NCBI GenBank assembly: GCA_036275915.1 | Contig: DASUCV010000018.1 | Span: 186,001-250,000, forward strand | Length of the DNA: 64,000 nucleotides | Source: Candidatus Polarisedimenticolaceae bacterium | GTDB lineage: Bacteria; Acidobacteriota; Polarisedimenticolia; Polarisedimenticolales; DASRJG01 | Direction: 5' to 3' | Shown here: positions 36,075 through 46,586 of the stretch, one piece after another | Numbering within the stretch: position 1 is the first letter of the stretch | How the letters are laid out: the number at the start of each line of letters is the position of its first letter | The notes under the pieces: model-generated | Told to the model about the DNA's origin: nothing | Databases searched by the model: none | What the model saw: only the letters and a program-made list of their open reading frames with translations | Position numbers and translations under genes: made by a program

Positions 36075-37250
36075 ATGACGGCGCCCGCGGTCACGCTGCA
36101 CCCGCGCGGTGTCCGGCGCCTCACCACCCGCCATCCCTGGATCTTCGCCGACGACGTCCGCTCGGCGGACGGCGCGGCCCACGGCGACGTCGTGCGGCTC
36201 GCCGATTCCCAGGGGCGCGGGCTCGGCTACGGGTTCTTCTCCTCGCGCTCCAAGATCACGCTACGCGTTCTCACCCTCGAGGACGCGCTCCCGGACGTGA
36301 CGTTCTTCGCGCGCCGGATCGACCTCGCCTTGGCACGGCGCGCGGCGCTCGAGCGGTGGGAGGCCCGGCGCCTCCTCTTCGCGGAGAGCGACGGGATCCC
36401 GGGCTTCATCGCCGACATCTACGGGACGCACCTCGTCGTCCAGGCGACGACCGCCGCCACCGAGCGTCTCCTCCCGTCGCTGGTCGCGCTGCTCAGGGAG
36501 CGCCTCCCGATCGACTCGGCGCTCGCGCGAAACGATGCCTCGGTCCGGCGCCTCGAAGGCCTCGGTCGCGAGGTCGTGCCGGTCTTCGGCACGACGCCGG
36601 AGCGCGTCGTCGTCGGCGAGGGCGCGATCCGCTATGCGGCGGACCCCTGGCGCGGACAGAAGACGGGGGCGTTCCTCGATCAGCGCGAGAATCGTCTGGT
36701 GTGCGGAACCCACGCCAAGGGGCGGGTCCTCGATGCGTTCTCCTACCACGGCTCGTTCGCGCTCCACGCGGCCCGCGCCGCCCGGGAAGTCGTCGCGGTC
36801 GACGCGTCGGCCGACGCGCTCGCGCGGGGGCGCGAGAACGCACGGGAGAACGGCCTGACGAACGTGACCTTCGTCGAGGGGAACGTCTTCGACGACCTGC
36901 GCGCGCGCGCCGACCGCGGCGAGCGTTTCGATCTCGTGCTCCTGGACCCGCCCGCCTTCGCCAAGAGCCGCGTCGACGTGCCGGCCGCGCGTCGCGGCTA
37001 CAAGGATGTCAACCTCCGCGGATTCCGCGTCCTGGCGCCGGGCGGCGTGCTCATGACCTCGTCGTGCTCGTACCACATGGACGAGACCGAGTTCGAGCAC
37101 GTCGTCCGCGACGCGGCGGCGGACGCCGGACGCGACGTCGTCGTTCTCGAGCGGCGCGGCCAGGCCGCCGATCACCCCGTGCGGCTCGCGTTCCCCGAGA
37201 GCCGCTATCTCAAGTGTCTCGTGCTGCGGGACGCGGGGGCCGCACCTTGA
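36075..37250 (+). CDS. rlmI: Class I SAM-dependent 23S rRNA methyltransferase, RlmI-like
   Basis: A 391-residue enzyme, ATG at 36075, six bases after dksA. An N-terminal PUA domain begins LHPRGVRRLTTRHPWIFADDV (about 8-28). The catalytic Rossmann domain has DQRENR (about 201-206), VLDAFSYHGSFALHAARA (about 217-234), DPPAFAKSR (about 294-302) and the active-site cysteine region MTSSCSYHM (about 330-338). RlmI methylates C1962 of E. coli 23S rRNA. The site in this organism is inferred. Its stop overlaps the TTG of the giant envelope gene. Confidence 0.9.
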   Translation: MTAPAVTLHPRGVRRLTTRHPWIFADDVRSADGAAHGDVVRLADSQGRGLGYGFFSSRSKITLRVLTLEDALPDVTFFARRIDLALARRAALERWEARRLLFAESDGIPGFIADIYGTHLVVQATTAATERLLPSLVALLRERLPIDSALARNDASVRRLEGLGREVVPVFGTTPERVVVGEGAIRYAADPWRGQKTGAFLDQRENRLVCGTHAKGRVLDAFSYHGSFALHAARAAREVVAVDASADALARGRENARENGLTNVTFVEGNVFDDLRARADRGERFDLVLLDPPAFAKSRVDVPAARRGYKDVNLRGFRVLAPGGVLMTSSCSYHMDETEFEHVVRDAAADAGRDVVVLERRGQAADHPVRLAFPESRYLKCLVLRDAGAAP

Positions 37251-40200
37251 GGCGTTTCGCCGCCCTCGCGGTCGCGGCGCTCGCCGCGGCCGGACCTTCA
37301 CTCGCGGCGCAAGACGACGCGCCGGAGCGCTCCGCGTCGTGGCTGCAACGCCGCCTCGAAGCGGGGCTCGAGAAGGCGCTCGGTGGAACGGTCCGCATCG
37401 GCCGCATGGACGTCGATTGGACCGGGCTTTCCGCCGACGTCGGCGACGTCGCGATCGAGATCCCCGCGGAAGGCGCGCCGCCTCTCACGGCGACGATCGC
37501 ATCGGGTCGCATCCGTCTCGCGTGGGAAGGGCTCGCCGGGATCGCCGGCGGCCGCATCCACATCTCGGACGTCGAGGCGAAGGGGGCGACGTTCTCTCTG
37601 AGCCGTGCGTGGATCGACGCGTGGCGCCCCAAGCCCGGCCCCGAGAAGGCGGGGGTCGAGGTCCGCATCGACCGCCTCACCGTCTCGGGCGCCACGGCGG
37701 TCTATGCCGACGAGGGCGTGCACACGATCGTCCGCGCGACCGACCTGAGCTTGAAAGGCGACTGGTCGACCGCGCGGCGCTCGCTCGTCGCGGAGGCGAC
37801 CACCCAGGCGACGGTCGAGGCGCCGTTCTTCAAGGTGCCGTGGACCGCGAGCGTCCGAAGCGGGCTCAGGCTCGGTCCCGGCCGCCTGGAGATCACCGGC
37901 GCGACCGCCGAGGGACCCGGCGTCTCGGGCGAGCTTCGAGGCAACGTGACGTGGGGAGCGGGGACGTCGTTCACCGCGGAAGGGCGCGTCGACGCCGAGC
38001 TGGCCCGGCTGCTCCCGTCGCTCACCGGGCCTCACGGGCTCGCGGGACACGCGACCGGTCCGTTCCAGATCGTCTTCGTCGGCGGAGCGCCGATCAAGGT
38101 GGCGCTCCAGGCGCAGACGACCGGCTTCGCGGTCGGCCCGGTGACGACGGCGAGCGCGGCCGCCTCCCTCACGCTCCGGCCGGGTCGCCTCGACGTCGAG
38201 GCGATCGACGCGCGCGCGTACGGCGGGCGGTTCACCGGCACCGTCGGGCTCGCGTTCGGGCAGGCGACGACCCTGACGCTCGACGTCGCGGGCAAGGGCG
38301 CCGACGCCGGCGCCGTGACCGCGCTCACCGGAAAGACGCTGCCTCTCGCCGCGGCAACCGACCTGACCTTGGCGCTCAGCGGCGATCCGGGAAGGATCGC
38401 GTCGTGGGTGGGCCGCGGCACCTTCCAGGCGTCGCCGCTGAAGGGCCCCGGAACGCGCGTGCCGGTCGGCGGGAAGGGCACGCTCGAATTCGCCTCGGGC
38501 CGCGTGACGCTCGCGAGCGGCAACCTCGTCTCCGGCCCCTCGTCGTTCGCGCTGTCGCTCGTCTCCGAGCTCGGCCTGTCGCCGGCGACGACCCATCTCG
38601 AGGTGTCGGGGACGACGGACGACGGGGCCGCGACCCAGCAGGACGTGATCCGGATCCTGGAGGCGCTCGGCGTGGGGGCCAACCGCATCGTCAGGGAGCC
38701 GGTCGCGGGAGCGGGAAGCTTCCGCACGGACGTCCGTTCGGGCGCGTCGACCCAATTCGGCCTCGGGCTCGATCTCGTCAACGGCTCGTGGTCGGGCGAG
38801 CCGTTCGATCACGCCGTCCTCGATCTCGCCGTCGACCCGAAGCAGATCGCGATCTCCCGCCTCACGGTCGAGCGGGGCCAGGAGCGGGCCGACGGCCACC
38901 TCCGGTTCGACGCGGCGACGGGGCATCTCGCCGAGGCCGCCATCAAGGCGAGCGGCGTGTCGATCGCGGCCGTGGCGCGGCGGTTCGGCCTCACGGTCCC
39001 CGTCTCGGGACGGCTCGCGCTCGACGTTGCCGGCGACATGATCGACGGGGCCTTCGCCGCGCAGGGGACGCTGCACGCCGAGGGGATCATCGTGGGGAAC
39101 GAGATCTTCGACACGGTCGACGCGCCGTTCGTCGTGGAGAACGGGATCGCGCATCTCGATCCCGTCACGGTCGTGAGCCACGGTCTCGAGGGGCGACTGC
39201 GCGTGGCCTACGACCTCGACGCCGCGCGCGCCGACGTCGACGTCCTCGAGGCGACGCTCGACCTCGCGTCGAGCCGCTCGCTCGCCGAGGCGGGACTCGT
39301 CGCGCAGGGCACGCTCCGCGCGCGCGGTCCGCTCTCGATCGGACGCGACGGGCCGTCGGGTTTCCTGACGGTGAGCGCGAACGAGTTCGTCCTCGACACG
39401 CGCAAGACCGGCGTGCGCGAGCTGAGGCTCGGCGACTTCTCCGGTGGCGCCGAGCTCGCGCCCTCCGGGCTGACGCTCGCCGTGGCGGCCGATCCCGAGC
39501 CGGTGTGGACGTTCGAGAGTGTCCTCGGCTGGTCGTCGGCGCTGCCGGTCTCCGCGGTCCTCTACTTCGACGACCTCACGGTCGGCGCGGGGGGGGCGTT
39601 CGGAGAGAGCGCGGATCTGCGCCTCAAAGGGCAGATCCAGGCGGACGGGGAGCTGACCTCGCCGAAGGCGCTCGAGGTCAACGGGGCGTTCGACGATGTG
39701 GCGGTGCGGGTCGGGCCGACGACCTTGAGGTCGGTCGCGGCATTCCCCCTCAAACTCGACAGCGGTCAGTTCGTCCTGGGCCCCAGCCGCTTCGAGGGGG
39801 AAGGCGCCAGCCTGAATCTCTCGGCGCAGGGGTCGGTCGAAGGCGGCGCCTTCTCCGCGCGCCTGGAAGGGCGGCTCGATCTCGCGATCGTGTCGTCGTT
39901 CTTGTCGGACCTGCGCGGTGCGGGACCGATGACGATCGACGCGACCGTGGGCGGCACGTTCGATCGCCCGGATCTGCGGGGGCGCGTCCTCGTCGAGGAC
40001 GGCCGCGTGCGGCTCATCGGTTATCCCCAGTCGCTCGAGCACATCGACGCCGAGGCGATCTTCGAAGGCCAGACCCTCCGCCTCGGCAACTTCCACGCGG
40101 CTCTCGGTGGGGGCGAGATCACCGCCACGGGGACGACGACGTTCACCGGGCTGACCCCGTCGTCCTACGAGGCGACGTTCGAGGTCGCGAACGTCAGCGC

Positions 40201-43200
40201 CACCTTTCCCGAAGGGTTCAAGGGGACCTACCAAGGGCGGGTGAAGGTCGCGGGCGCCCGCCGCGGGGCGAACGTCACGGGCCGCATCGAGGTCGTCCGC
40301 GGACTCTACGCGCGCGAGTTCGACCTCTCGTTCACGTCGGCGTCGCACCGCGAGTTCGGCGAGGCCGGCGAATCGCGCTTCCCGCGGAACATCTTCCTCG
40401 ATGTCGACGTCGTCGCTCCGGGAAACGTCTGGATCCGCAACGACATCGCCAAGCTCGAGATCGAGGGAAGCCTTCACGTCGGCGGCGAGGTGGCGCGGCC
40501 GGAGATGACGGGGAGGATCTCGCTCGTTCCCGGCGGGACGATCCGGTACCGCGACGTCGACTACCGCCTGGAGTACGGCACGCTCGACCTCACCGACACC
40601 CGCCGGATCAACCCCTACGTCGACATCCTCGGCACCACGCGCGTCGGCGAGTACAACGTGACGCTGCACGTCGAGGGGACGGCCGACAAGTTCGAGTACG
40701 AGCTGACCTCGCTTCCGCCGTTGTCGTCCCAGGACATCATCTCGCTGCTCGTCACGGGGAAGACCCTCGACGCGATCAATGCCTCGGGCGCCGCCGCGGC
40801 GCTGCCGACCGACATGGCGGCGTACTACTTCGCCGGCCTCTTGACCGAGACGTTCGGGCACACGATCCAGAGCTCGCTGGGGATCGACCAGTTCGCGATC
40901 ACGCCTCTCCTCCTCAAGGGCGAAGGCGACCCGACCGCGCGCGTGACCGTGGGCAAGCGCGTCAGCGACAAGGTCAAGGTCATCTTCTCCCAGGACATCG
41001 GAACGGCGCAGAAACAGACCTACCAGATCGTCACCGACGTGACGCGCCGCGTGCGGCTCATCGCCGAGAGCGACAGCGAGTCGGGCCTCGGCGGCGAGGT
41101 CCAGTATTCCCAGCAGTTCGGGGGTGCGCCGCGGACGAAGGACGCGGTCAAGGCCTCCGAGAGTGCGCTCCCTCCGGGGCCGATCGGGTCTGTCGCCGTC
41201 GTTCCGACCGACGGGCCCGCGCGCCCCGATCTGGCGAAGCGATCGAAGCTGAAAGCGGGCAAGCCGTTCGACCGCGCGAAGATGCTCGAGGGCGGCGACC
41301 GGATCCGGGCGGCGCTCGTGAAGGAGGGCTTCGTGCAATCGGACGTGCGCTCGGAGCCCGGACGCGACGAGACGACCGGCGTCTACAACGTCGTCTATCA
41401 CATCACCCCCGGTCCTCGGGTCGTCGTCCAGGTCGTCACACCCGACCACAAGAAGGAGAAGTCGATCCGGAAGAAGCTGCGCGCGTTCTGGCGGGAGACG
41501 CCCTACACCCCCGACATCTGGGACGAGGCGTCGAAGGCGCTCCTGGACGACCTCCAGGGGGACGGCTACTACGCGACCGACATCGCGTGGCACGCGATCG
41601 ACACCGCGGCCGGCCGCACGGTGAGGTTCAACGTCGATCGAGGGAAGCCGGTACGCCTTCGCTCCCTCACGTTCGACGGCGTGACCTCTCTTCCTCTCTC
41701 ACGGATCGAGTCGCAGATGGAGTCGCTCCGGAAGAAGAGCCTGACGAAGCGTCTCTTGCGCCCCGAGGTCCTCACGCAAGATGTGGGAACCGTTCGCGCC
41801 CTCTACCGCGACGAAGGGTTCGTGCAGGTCCGCGTGGCACTGCCGCAGATCACGCTCGCGGCGACCGGCGATGCCGCCGACGTCCGCATCGCGGTCGACG
41901 AGGGCACGCGGTTCAGCGTGGGCGAGATTGCGTTCCAGGGCGACGCTCCGTACGGCGACGACATCCTCACGGAGTGGTCGCCGCTCAAGGCGGGCACGAC
42001 CTTCTCGCCGCGCCGCCTCGCCGTGGCGGAGCAGGCGCTGCACGACAAGCTCGACGAGCGGGGTTACCCCGACGCGACCGTCGACTCCGGGGTCGTCCTG
42101 GGCGCGGATCGGGCCGACGTGTCGTTCGACCTCGGTGCCGAGGGGAAGAAGACCGTCGGCGCGGTCGTCTTCGAAGGCAACAAGGTGACGAAGCACCGCA
42201 CGATGGCGAAGGCGCTCACCTTCGGTGAGGGCGACCCGGTCTCGCGGAACGCGCTCCTCAAGACGCAGCAGAACCTCTACCGGACCGGTTTGTTCTCCTC
42301 GGTGAAGCTGACCTTCGAGCCGCTGCCGGGCGAGGACCCGTCGCTCCAGGAGGTCCGCGTGCGGGTCGAGGAGGCACCGCCGTGGAGCATGGGGTTCGGC
42401 CTCGGCTACGACTCCCAGGACGGCCCGCGCGCGAGCTTCCTGCTCGGCTATTCGAACCTGGGCGGGCGCAACGTCGGCGTCGCGTTCCAGGGCCTGGCGA
42501 GCCCGAACGACAGCCGCGCGCAGGTCACCGTCCGTCACCGGCGCGTCTTCCACAACTCGATCGATTCGCTCGGCTCGCTGCTGTGGGAGCGCACCGTGCA
42601 GGACGCGTTCACCGAGTGGCGGAACTCAGCGTCGGTCCGCCTCGAGCGCCGTCCGTCGCCGCGGTGGATCCAGTACATCCGTTACACGATCGAGGATGTC
42701 CGGATCGGAAACGATCCCGACGCGGTGGCGGCGATCGACGAGATCTTCGCCGACAAGCTCTCCGCGATCCGCCTCGGGAGCTTCGGGCTCGGGATCGTCC
42801 GCGATTCGCGGGACGACGCCTTCTCGACGACGCGCGGAGCCTACGGCTCGATCGAGACGAGCGTCTTCGCGCGTCCGCTCGGCTCGCAAGCGTCGTTCGC
42901 GACCCTCTTCCTCCGGGGCTCGTGGACCAAGAGCTTCCGCAACGGGACCCGCTTCGCGACCTTCCTCCGGATCGGCGCCGAGCAGCCGTTCGGGGACACC
43001 GACCTCGTCCCCCTGTCCGAGCGATACTTCGCCGGCGGCGCCTCCACGATGCGCGGCTTCTCCCTCGACTCGGTCGGCGGGCTCCACTTCTGCCTGGTGT
43101 CGAACCCGCCCGCCCCTGAGACCGTCGTGCAGTGCCAAGGGAACGATCCCAACGTGCGGTCGTTCAACGCCGGTGGCGAGGCCCTTCTGCTCGTCAACGA

Positions 43201-43435
43201 GGAATACCACTTCCCGTTGTGGAAGGCGCTCCACGGCGAGGTCTTCCTCGACGTCGGCAACGTCTACCCGACGATCTCCGACTTCGATCCGACCGACGTG
43301 CGCTCCGACGCCGGGCTCGGCCTCAGGCTCGACACCCCGATCGGGCCGATCCGGGTCGAATACGGATGGAAGCTCGATCGCCGCGAAGGCGAGAGCCCCG
43401 GCGAATTCGTGTTCGCGATCGGATTGCTGTTCTAG
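37247..43435 (+). CDS. TamB-like/Omp85 fusion: AsmA-type repeats, DUF490, five POTRA domains and outer-membrane barrel
   Basis: A single open frame of 2062 residues from TTG 37247 (TTGA overlap) to TAG 43435. Residues 1-22 form a signal peptide or anchor (RRFAALAVAALAAAGPSLAA). Residues about 25-950 are AsmA/TamB-type beta-helical repeats. About 950-1290 is the DUF490 domain, including ELTSLPPLSSQDIISLLVTG. About 1314-1710 holds five POTRA-like repeats. Residues 1711-2062 are a 16-strand-type Omp85 barrel with the conserved loop motif MRGF (R1936) and a terminal aromatic strand ending AIGLLF. In E. coli, TamB (inner membrane) and TamA (outer membrane) are separate proteins. Here DUF490 runs directly into the POTRAs. 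It likely builds outer-membrane proteins or carries lipids across the periplasm. Confidence 0.88.
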   Translation: MRRFAALAVAALAAAGPSLAAQDDAPERSASWLQRRLEAGLEKALGGTVRIGRMDVDWTGLSADVGDVAIEIPAEGAPPLTATIASGRIRLAWEGLAGIAGGRIHISDVEAKGATFSLSRAWIDAWRPKPGPEKAGVEVRIDRLTVSGATAVYADEGVHTIVRATDLSLKGDWSTARRSLVAEATTQATVEAPFFKVPWTASVRSGLRLGPGRLEITGATAEGPGVSGELRGNVTWGAGTSFTAEGRVDAELARLLPSLTGPHGLAGHATGPFQIVFVGGAPIKVALQAQTTGFAVGPVTTASAAASLTLRPGRLDVEAIDARAYGGRFTGTVGLAFGQATTLTLDVAGKGADAGAVTALTGKTLPLAAATDLTLALSGDPGRIASWVGRGTFQASPLKGPGTRVPVGGKGTLEFASGRVTLASGNLVSGPSSFALSLVSELGLSPATTHLEVSGTTDDGAATQQDVIRILEALGVGANRIVREPVAGAGSFRTDVRSGASTQFGLGLDLVNGSWSGEPFDHAVLDLAVDPKQIAISRLTVERGQERADGHLRFDAATGHLAEAAIKASGVSIAAVARRFGLTVPVSGRLALDVAGDMIDGAFAAQGTLHAEGIIVGNEIFDTVDAPFVVENGIAHLDPVTVVSHGLEGRLRVAYDLDAARADVDVLEATLDLASSRSLAEAGLVAQGTLRARGPLSIGRDGPSGFLTVSANEFVLDTRKTGVRELRLGDFSGGAELAPSGLTLAVAADPEPVWTFESVLGWSSALPVSAVLYFDDLTVGAGGAFGESADLRLKGQIQADGELTSPKALEVNGAFDDVAVRVGPTTLRSVAAFPLKLDSGQFVLGPSRFEGEGASLNLSAQGSVEGGAFSARLEGRLDLAIVSSFLSDLRGAGPMTIDATVGGTFDRPDLRGRVLVEDGRVRLIGYPQSLEHIDAEAIFEGQTLRLGNFHAALGGGEITATGTTTFTGLTPSSYEATFEVANVSATFPEGFKGTYQGRVKVAGARRGANVTGRIEVVRGLYAREFDLSFTSASHREFGEAGESRFPRNIFLDVDVVAPGNVWIRNDIAKLEIEGSLHVGGEVARPEMTGRISLVPGGTIRYRDVDYRLEYGTLDLTDTRRINPYVDILGTTRVGEYNVTLHVEGTADKFEYELTSLPPLSSQDIISLLVTGKTLDAINASGAAAALPTDMAAYYFAGLLTETFGHTIQSSLGIDQFAITPLLLKGEGDPTARVTVGKRVSDKVKVIFSQDIGTAQKQTYQIVTDVTRRVRLIAESDSESGLGGEVQYSQQFGGAPRTKDAVKASESALPPGPIGSVAVVPTDGPARPDLAKRSKLKAGKPFDRAKMLEGGDRIRAALVKEGFVQSDVRSEPGRDETTGVYNVVYHITPGPRVVVQVVTPDHKKEKSIRKKLRAFWRETPYTPDIWDEASKALLDDLQGDGYYATDIAWHAIDTAAGRTVRFNVDRGKPVRLRSLTFDGVTSLPLSRIESQMESLRKKSLTKRLLRPEVLTQDVGTVRALYRDEGFVQVRVALPQITLAATGDAADVRIAVDEGTRFSVGEIAFQGDAPYGDDILTEWSPLKAGTTFSPRRLAVAEQALHDKLDERGYPDATVDSGVVLGADRADVSFDLGAEGKKTVGAVVFEGNKVTKHRTMAKALTFGEGDPVSRNALLKTQQNLYRTGLFSSVKLTFEPLPGEDPSLQEVRVRVEEAPPWSMGFGLGYDSQDGPRASFLLGYSNLGGRNVGVAFQGLASPNDSRAQVTVRHRRVFHNSIDSLGSLLWERTVQDAFTEWRNSASVRLERRPSPRWIQYIRYTIEDVRIGNDPDAVAAIDEIFADKLSAIRLGSFGLGIVRDSRDDAFSTTRGAYGSIETSVFARPLGSQASFATLFLRGSWTKSFRNGTRFATFLRIGAEQPFGDTDLVPLSERYFAGGASTMRGFSLDSVGGLHFCLVSNPPAPETVVQCQGNDPNVRSFNAGGEALLLVNEEYHFPLWKALHGEVFLDVGNVYPTISDFDPTDVRSDAGLGLRLDTPIGPIRVEYGWKLDRREGESPGEFVFAIGLLF

Positions 43436-43533: not shown

Positions 43534-43893
43534 TCAGGCCAATGAGAATCTCAGGTTCGTGCGATGGGGCCGCAGCGAGGCGCGGAGTTTGTCCTTCGCC
43601 TCGCGCTCGAGCTGGCGGACCCGCTCGCGGCTCAGGTTGAGGTTCTTCCCGATCTCTTCGAGCGTCTGCTCCTGACCGCCGAGGAGACCGAACCGGTTGC
43701 GGATGATGTGGAGCTCACGCTCGTCGAGACGGTCGAGCGCACGATGGACGAGCGCGCCGACCTCTTGGTTGTAGATTCGCTCTTCCTGGCTTTCGGAGTT
43801 GGGATCGGCCAGGAGCGTCGCGAGACGACACTCTTCATCGCGGTCGACGTAATCGTCGATCGAGAGCTCTTTCTGCAGCAGCGGGAAGATCAT
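43534..43893 (-). CDS. Stand-alone sigma-70 region 3.2-4 protein
   Basis: A 119-residue protein from ATG 43893, with AAGGAG 6 bases upstream. Residues about 11-40 match the sigma region 3.2 linker, 45-70 region 4.1 (ALDRLDERELHIIRNRFGLLG at about 54-74) and 75-105 region 4.2 with the helix-turn-helix LEEIGKNLNLSRERVRQLE. Regions 1, 2 and 3.0, which bind core polymerase and melt the -10 element, are absent. The upstream minus-strand frame stays open to 44031 but shows no sigma-like sequence. It could be a remnant of an RpoS/RpoH-type factor or a working partner protein that supplies only -35 recognition. The Shine-Dalgarno site and intact frame favour expression. Confidence 0.75.
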   Translation of the reverse strand: MIFPLLQKELSIDDYVDRDEECRLATLLADPNSESQEERIYNQEVGALVHRALDRLDERELHIIRNRFGLLGGQEQTLEEIGKNLNLSRERVRQLEREAKDKLRASLRPHRTNLRFSLA

Positions 43894-44142
43894 CTCGGTC
43901 TCCTTCGCGACCCCTCGCAATCCCTTAAAGCAACTCGTGTGCCGGATGCGAATCCGTGTGCCGCCGGTTGCTGCAAAGGCGCGGCAGACCGTTTTTCCCC
44001 GTCGTGGCGCGTCGAATCGTGTAAGTCGCACGTTACGTTCGACTCCTCCGCTTCGATGGGGATTACGGCCCTTTCGGCGTCATGCTGCCTACCTGGCGTT
44101 CGGCTTGTCGGCCCCATGCAAGAATGGCGCGCCGGAGGCCGC
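43894..44142. other. Divergent intergenic region, sigma-4 gene / mutL
   Basis: About 250 bases between the minus-strand sigma-type gene and mutL. It has lower GC than the flanks and contains short AT-rich patches (for example CCCTTAAAGC and a run of five T at 43992-43996). I find no -35/-10 pair with good spacing in either direction and no convincing small gene, although the region presumably holds both promoters. Confidence 0.4.
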
Positions 44143-45884: not shown

Positions 45885-46586
45885 ATGCGTCGCGGGGCAA
45901 TCATCCTGTCCACCGTCCTTCTCTGCTCGGCGCGGGCTCGCGCGACCGACCTCGTCATGTTCGAGGACGGGCGAGGGATCCGGGTTCGGGCGATCGACGT
46001 GGCCGACGGTGTCGCGCAGCTCACCCTTGAAGACGGCGGCACGGTCGGCGTGCCGCTGCTCTCGGTGGTCTCGATCGAGCGCGCGGTCGACCCGGGCGAC
46101 CTGCTCCCTCAAGCCCCGCCGCCCGACACGGAAGCCGCGGTGCGCCTCGCCGACGCCTTGCGGACAGGGGAGAAGTGGCGCGAGGCGGCGGGCAAGTACG
46201 CCGACATCCTCGCGGCGGCGGCCGACCGGCATTCGATCGATCGCGCGCTCCTCGCGGCGGTCGCCAAGATCGAGTCGAATTTCAATCCGTTCGCGATCTC
46301 GCCGCGCGGTGCCTGCGGGTTCCTGCAGCTCATGCCGAAGACCGCCAAACGGTTCGGCGTCAAGAGCGTCTTCGACGTCGAGCAGAACGTCGAGGGCGGC
46401 GCCGCCTACCTGCGCTGGCTGCTCGACCGGTTCGACGGCCGCATCGACCTCGCCCTCGCCGGCTACAACGCGGGTGAGGGGGCGGTCGACAAGCATCACG
46501 GGATCCCGCCGTTCGCCGAGACGCAGTGGTACGTGATCAAGGTCCTCGACAATGCGTCGAAGACCGGTCAGTCCGCGCCGCGCTGA
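45885..46586 (+). CDS. Exported lytic transglycosylase, SLT family
   Basis: A 233-residue periplasmic protein from ATG 45885. A signal peptide covers residues 1-20 (IILSTVLLCSARARA). A small beta-rich domain follows (about 21-75, VMFEDGRGIRVRAIDVADG), then the SLT domain with catalytic E130 in AKIESNFNPFAISPRGACG, GFLQLMPKTAKRFGV and AGYNAGEGAVDKHHGIPPF (about 188-206). It cleaves the MurNAc-GlcNAc bond of peptidoglycan with 1,6-anhydro product formation. There is no Shine-Dalgarno sequence before the ATG, consistent with a leaderless mRNA. The 3' end overlaps a convergent gene by 19 bases. Confidence 0.9.
   Translation: MRRGAIILSTVLLCSARARATDLVMFEDGRGIRVRAIDVADGVAQLTLEDGGTVGVPLLSVVSIERAVDPGDLLPQAPPPDTEAAVRLADALRTGEKWREAAGKYADILAAAADRHSIDRALLAAVAKIESNFNPFAISPRGACGFLQLMPKTAKRFGVKSVFDVEQNVEGGAAYLRWLLDRFDGRIDLALAGYNAGEGAVDKHHGIPPFAETQWYVIKVLDNASKTGQSAPR

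Follow-up and report, generated by a model that had tools for sequence, protein, structure and literature searches.

A lone sigma-70 region 3.2-4 protein with a predicted sigma-54 promoter in the class Candidatus Polarisedimenticolia

The window, i.e., the whole 64,000-nucleotide stretch of DNA that was analysed, corresponds to G000:C18:186001-250000, in which G000 denotes the draft genome of origin (4.53 Mb, 98% complete). It encodes on the minus strand a protein of 119 amino acids that corresponds to the end of a sigma-70 factor, flanked by the following features:

37217..43435 (+), TamB-POTRA-Omp85 fusion gene, convergent neighbour, recognised by Pfam; the start is our choice and is not established
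43534..43893 (-), coding sequence of the lone sigma region 3.2-4 protein, 119 aa, based on the open reading frame, Pfam, NCBIfam, the family profile and the structure model
43900..43905 (-), Shine-Dalgarno sequence AAGGAG, with 6 nt between AAGGAG and ATG
43929..43944 (-), predicted sigma-54 (-24/-12) promoter CGGCACACGAGTTGCT, its first base 51 nt ahead of the start codon
44116..45852 (+), mutL, divergent neighbour, Pfam MutL, kept in 14 of the 20 relatives that were fetched
45885..46586 (+), lytic transglycosylase (SLT) gene, conserved neighbour beyond mutL, Pfam SLT

The start codon of the lone gene is an ATG at 43893-43891 (-), and the open reading frame (43534-43893) and the Shine-Dalgarno sequence 6 bases ahead of it lie exactly where a sequence-only reading of this DNA had placed them. 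That reading had also limited the similarity to sigma-70 to regions 3.2 to 4, with region 2 missing, and Pfam, NCBIfam and profile alignments agree with it. Residues 52-105 match Sigma70_r4 (PF04545) with an E-value of 2.9e-17 and 62.3 bits against a curated cut-off of 24.1, which places the protein in the sigma-70 region 4 family, and neither region 2 (PF04542) nor a receiver domain is found in it by Pfam. The RpoS and RpoD models of NCBIfam align by their C-terminal ends only, positions 172-276 of the 285 of rpoS_proteo corresponding to residues 5-109, and the family profile aligns to regions 3.2-4 of solved SigA, RpoD and RpoS structures, from about residue 5-11 in most full-length chains. 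With region 2 absent and all 35 copies found at 117-119 aa, the protein is not a complete sigma-70 factor of any of groups 1-4. Using subregion borders that we set ourselves, it consists of region 3.2 or finger (about residues 9-40), region 4.1 (about 41-71) and region 4.2 (about 72-105), the latter including the recognition helix (87-96).

The AlphaFold2 model of the 119-aa protein has a mean pLDDT of 74.3, with block means of 79-95 for residues 41-110, which cover region 4, and of 46-63 for residues 1-40; the low confidence of the latter is as expected for a modelled region 3.2 linker. Its top matches in the PDB are sigma-A chains and region-4 fragments, and it superimposes on region 4 of Thermus aquaticus SigA bound to -35 DNA (1ku7) with an rmsd of 1.7 over 63 columns. 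The frequency of the majority residue, averaged over the 35 copies, is highest in the recognition helix (0.97) and falls from there through region 4.2 (0.78) and region 4.1 (0.61) to the finger/linker (0.58) and finally the tail (0.49). The full-length paralogue reaches 0.95 in the recognition helix and 0.70 in the finger/linker by the same measure, so that the looser finger of the lone protein (0.58 vs 0.70) lends no special support to a role of this element inside the polymerase. In the profile alignment the residues RERVRQ line up unchanged with the SigA residues that read the -35 element. Further positions are specific to the family, i.e., R23 (34 of 35 copies), I63, L95 and L6 near the hydrophobic start. 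The near-invariant recognition helix and the region-4 fold support the earlier proposal of a lone -35 recognition module; we infer that the protein binds -35 DNA, and contact with the beta-flap tip helix would be expected from the modelled fold. The same conservation pattern, with a recognition helix at 0.97 next to a looser finger/linker, could also be that of an ordinary DNA-binding regulator which re-uses the region-4 helix-turn-helix on specific operators without any dealings with RNA polymerase. The unchanged -35-reading RERVRQ argues against such a regulator, the targets of which would then be sigma-70-type -35 boxes, and we consider this explanation unlikely.

The statement of the sequence-only reading that nothing sigma-like lies upstream is confirmed, as the divergent mutL at 44116 and the shortness of the leader to be expected from the sigma-54 site leave no room for a region 2, and an upstream source of this region, whether hidden or separated by a frameshift, can therefore be ruled out. 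The only other in-frame start within the inferred leader would extend the protein by 9 residues; the length of this leader, about 25 nt from the site at 43929-43944, presumes the usual geometry of such promoters. Single-sequence searches against 60 relatives and profile searches against 41 genomes of the class Ca. Polarisedimenticolia (Acidobacteriota), most of them multi-contig drafts, yielded 35 orthologues (E ≤5e-34), each 117-119 aa long and together spread over 33 of the 41 class genomes, with one copy clipped by a contig end and two copies each in G035 and G037. All but one of these 35 align from profile position 1, the one in G006 (GTG start) aligning from position 2; full-length sigma factors score 3e-29 or weaker, enter the profile no earlier than position 3 and are encoded in longer frames. 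A chance open reading frame is ruled out by these orthologues of equal length. A copy is missing from eight of the 41 class genomes (G004, G015, G016, G017, G020, G025, G038, and G039), some of which are nearly complete (G004, 97%; G016, 96%). Outside the class, no lone copy was seen in 355 genomes of a phylum sample of 396 among the best candidates, at most 11 per genome, and the strongest match among the candidates scored (9.6e-27) lies in a long frame.

The lone gene is under strong purifying selection: of 25 listed close pairs, 24 have Nei-Gojobori dN/dS values of 0.012-0.094 and one a saturated dS, although the same genomes recur among the pairs, which are thus not independent of each other. 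In a tree of 53 rows, comprising 26 of the 35 lone copies and sigma factors of these genomes with no RpoS or RpoD from outside and with a midpoint root, the 26 lone sequences form one clade (98/95), although the program warned of long branches and an unsettled bootstrap. Sister to this clade are 13 full-length group-2-like sigma factors (fork 94/84), while RpoD and another sigma group stand apart. The simplest history is that a group-2-like sigma-70 factor was duplicated and one copy was truncated, a single time and early in the class. The sequence-only reading had considered a degraded sigma factor, which would have been borne out by a full-length sigma gene at this locus in close relatives; these encode the same 117-119-aa protein there instead. 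It speaks for degradation, or for a chance frame, that the 119-aa protein is truncated relative to full-length sigma factors. Equal length in 33 of 41 genomes, purifying selection, a single clade and a conserved promoter argue against both, so that we reject this explanation as extremely improbable.

In its commonest context, the lone gene is flanked by a tamB-bamA fusion gene on one side and by mutL on the other. In the relatives with an adjacent mutL, the tamB-bamA gene lies on the other side of the lone gene in 7 of 14; in G013 only the bamA side is seen before the contig ends, and in G012 mutL is about 4 kb away from the lone gene. Four genomes have other neighbours around it (G014, G019, G022, and G028), and in two of these, G014 and G019, it precedes genes for lipoprotein-like and TonB/ExbB/ExbD-like proteins; the gene names in these neighbourhoods (TonB, ExbB, ExbD, and Mpl; f8 and f12) were assigned by eye.

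The most informative feature of the locus, which the sequence-only reading had missed, is the promoter: the lone gene has a predicted sigma-54-type promoter, judged by the sigma-54 consensus and the usual start-site distance. The strict -24/-12 pattern occurs within 100 nt of the start codon, a suitable distance for a gene of the sigma-54 regulon, in 29 of the 35 copies, compared with a mean of 0.08 and a maximum of 2 in 1000 dinucleotide shuffles. A further copy (G035b) has its site at -107, those of G005 and G036 fit a relaxed pattern only, and no site was found upstream of the remaining three of the 35 (G021, L047; G035a, L048; G037b, L165), each of which is either a divergent copy or the second one of its genome. 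The same pattern is found in 1 of 35 cases on the opposite strand of the same 200 nt, ahead of mutL in 1 of 15, ahead of the lytic transglycosylase gene in 0 of 15 and ahead of p49 in 0 of 8, and it is absent from the 350-nt stretch around the start of the full-length paralogue (0 of 13). In the two genomes read with another gene neighbourhood (G014 and G019), the lone gene is likewise preceded by the site. The gene for sigma-54 itself, rpoN, is present in 38 of 41 class genomes, while in G023, which has the lone gene with its site, no rpoN was found.

Genome-wide, the pattern is enriched over a reversed-pattern control in G005 (27 sites vs 12), G013 (14 vs 6) and G018 (27 vs 7), and it is not enriched in G003 (18 vs 18) or in G000, the genome of the window (9 vs 15); since it is not enriched in its own genome, the case for sigma-54 rests on positional conservation. 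The pattern precedes genes recognised by eye as type IV pilin-like in G000 and G005, which speaks in favour of its marking genuine sigma-54 promoters. We read the nine sites of G000 and 30 loci out of the 86 sites of G003, G005, G013 and G018; the open reading frames 3' of the sites, which were picked mechanically, often appeared secreted- or envelope-like by eye, and nine of the 30 loci had none. Such a site also stands ahead of an open reading frame that looks by eye like a signal peptidase or LexA (L131 in G000, L223 in G005). In G011, G018, G023 and G035b (L050, L044, L046, and L110), a palindrome of the GCGCCA-n-TGGCGC type precedes the sigma-54 site of the lone gene by about 55-58 bp and is possibly a candidate site for an enhancer-binding protein; palindromes near -106 to -165 occur upstream of the lone gene in some f5 genomes.

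Our preferred explanation is a sigma-54-induced -35/beta-flap module, truncated once from a group-2-like sigma-70 factor, which competes with or adds to other sigma factors, a reading to which we give somewhat less than even odds (about 45%). The sigma-54 polymerase would transcribe the lone gene once an enhancer-binding protein is active. The product retains an intact -35 recognition helix, together with the fold by which region 4 ordinarily holds on to the beta-flap tip, but has lost the section of a sigma factor responsible for clamp-helix binding and promoter melting. Whenever sigma-54 is active, the protein might then occupy -35-like elements and/or the beta flap with the RNA-exit path and displace region 4 of sigma-70-type factors, by which sigma-70-type initiation would be lowered or re-targeted during a sigma-54 programme that, by eye, comprises pilin-like and envelope genes. 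The protein is thus probably a competitor or modulator on an RNA polymerase that carries another sigma factor, the effect of which would be either repression or re-targeting. A variant that we hold to be possible but doubtful is a cross-talk subunit between the two sigma classes, which are unrelated to each other. The detached region 3.2-4 would settle on the beta flap and along the RNA-exit path, either in a polymerase with another sigma factor or in the core. If true, this would imply that parts of two sigma factors share one holoenzyme, the -35 preference of which is altered, and a coupling of sigma-54 activation to the reprogramming of sigma-70-type promoters across a bacterial class.

On its own, region 4 has a weak affinity for core and DNA, and the lone protein may therefore need a partner unlike region 2. 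The sequence-only reading had suggested a pairing with a region-2 subunit as in SigO/RsoA, i.e., a two-subunit sigma factor in which a separate protein supplies core binding and promoter melting. Its architecture, a -35 module without region 2, suits this explanation, and precedents are given by SigO/RsoA (PMC8103513) and by T4 gp55/gp33 (PMC7892883). A lone region-2 partner, the search for which the sequence-only reading had proposed, was not encountered: none of the 76 region-2 matches by PF04542 in three genomes (39 in G000, 14 in G013, 23 in G002) is a region-2-only protein, and the proposed pairing is not borne out. All 14 proteins of G013 and all 23 of G002 have at least 85 residues beyond region 2. 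By our reading of coordinates, 30 of the 39 matches in G000 share a gene with a PF04545 match, and the other nine are followed by at least 80 residues, six of them with Pfam region 4_2, two of these below the cut-off. The one candidate followed up, an ECF sigma factor with a degenerate C-terminus (L095), was rejected as a partner owing to its wrong distribution: it occurs in 14 of the 41 genomes, among them G016, where the lone gene is missing. No partner gene stands beside the lone gene in a common operon at the loci of the fetched relatives, and no candidate was noticed among the sigma-54-pattern loci (nine in G000, 30 of 86 elsewhere). A partner without a region 2 visible to Pfam (PF04542) is possible; overall, we regard a two-subunit sigma factor as rather improbable. 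A further small protein of G000 (L101, G000:C22:469200-471300; open frame of 107 aa) shows a region-4 helix-turn-helix that scores below the threshold, and it lacks region 2.

In SigO-RsoA, the sigma-4 and sigma-2 functions reside on separate polypeptides according to PMC8103513, SigO having about 22.5 kDa and its dedicated partner RsoA 9.0 kDa in PMC10141391, and the two papers disagree on which subunit holds which region. The sigma-4 function on a polypeptide of its own is shared with the lone protein, whereas the latter has 119 aa, a sigma-54-type promoter and no partner gene that was found; SigO-RsoA is thus an architectural precedent, and the lone protein is not a member of this type, since no partner was found. 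The T4 protein gp33 holds the flap tip in the manner of region 4 and represses when alone, but it has no structural relation to region 4 and does not bind DNA unaided (PMC7892883). Both are small separate proteins, and gp33, which acts with gp55, substitutes for region 4 at the beta-flap tip helix; the lone protein, by contrast, is genuinely homologous to region 4, has its -35 helix intact and is hence not of the gp33 type. By analogy, gp33 can guide ideas on how a lone flap binder might act. The closest relatives of regions 3.2-4 in our tree (fork 94/84), full-length group-2-like sigma factors such as that at G000:C4:400472, differ by carrying regions 2 to 4 and by the absence of a sigma-54 site (0 of 13).

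A last explanation is a decoy that mimics region 4 and soaks up an anti-sigma factor or another region-4-binding regulator, by which a full-length sigma factor is freed in the style of PhyR-NepR. A sigma-like domain without full sigma functions behind an inducible type of promoter would fit this role, for which PhyR, a response regulator whose sigma-like domain has degenerated promoter- and core-contacting parts, is the precedent (PMC8103513). In PhyR, and presumably in the lone protein, a sigma-like domain does not initiate transcription. The lone protein has no receiver domain and keeps its -35 contacts, the recognition helix being its best-conserved part, whereas these contacts degenerated in PhyR; it is thus not a mimic of the PhyR type, and no anti-sigma gene was noticed at its locus. 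A PhyR-like decoy is possible, but less likely because the DNA contacts are the best kept, and we rank it low.

Lone region-4 proteins are already known, namely SigO in part and phage open reading frames. In IMG/VR viral contigs, seven of the 44 loci read among 80 hold region-4-only frames of 103-151 aa (L247, L251, L254, L263, L273, L283, and L284). They resemble the lone gene as single frames with region 4 only, but the identity is 41-53% over region-4 segments and no common N- or C-terminal motifs were noticed; a phage origin was rejected, as the viral scan gave weaker region-4 matches only (44 of 80 loci read). In a literature search with most subscription papers outside its coverage, we recognised no report of a stand-alone region-4 protein in Acidobacteriota and found none of a cellular one that spans a whole class and is linked to sigma-54.

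Ordinarily, region 4 acts only within a sigma factor that also has region 2, and a lineage with a lone region 4 under purifying selection, here a little-studied group of Acidobacteria, would be a natural test of what this region does alone. Behind a sigma-54 promoter, the lone gene would be an inherited wire from sigma-54 to the sigma-70 system, which suggests a link between the two main transcription-starting systems that has so far gone unrecognised. The protein is small, and it allows one to ask whether a detached region 4 redirects or blocks the polymerase in the cell.

The convergent neighbour of the lone gene is also of note. Within 37217-43435 (+) (L072, 3414-9620), Pfam finds TamB, four POTRA domains and Omp85 in one unbroken frame, by which both halves of a TAM-like pair are united in one protein, and a relative has a single open reading frame of 2068 aa at the same position.
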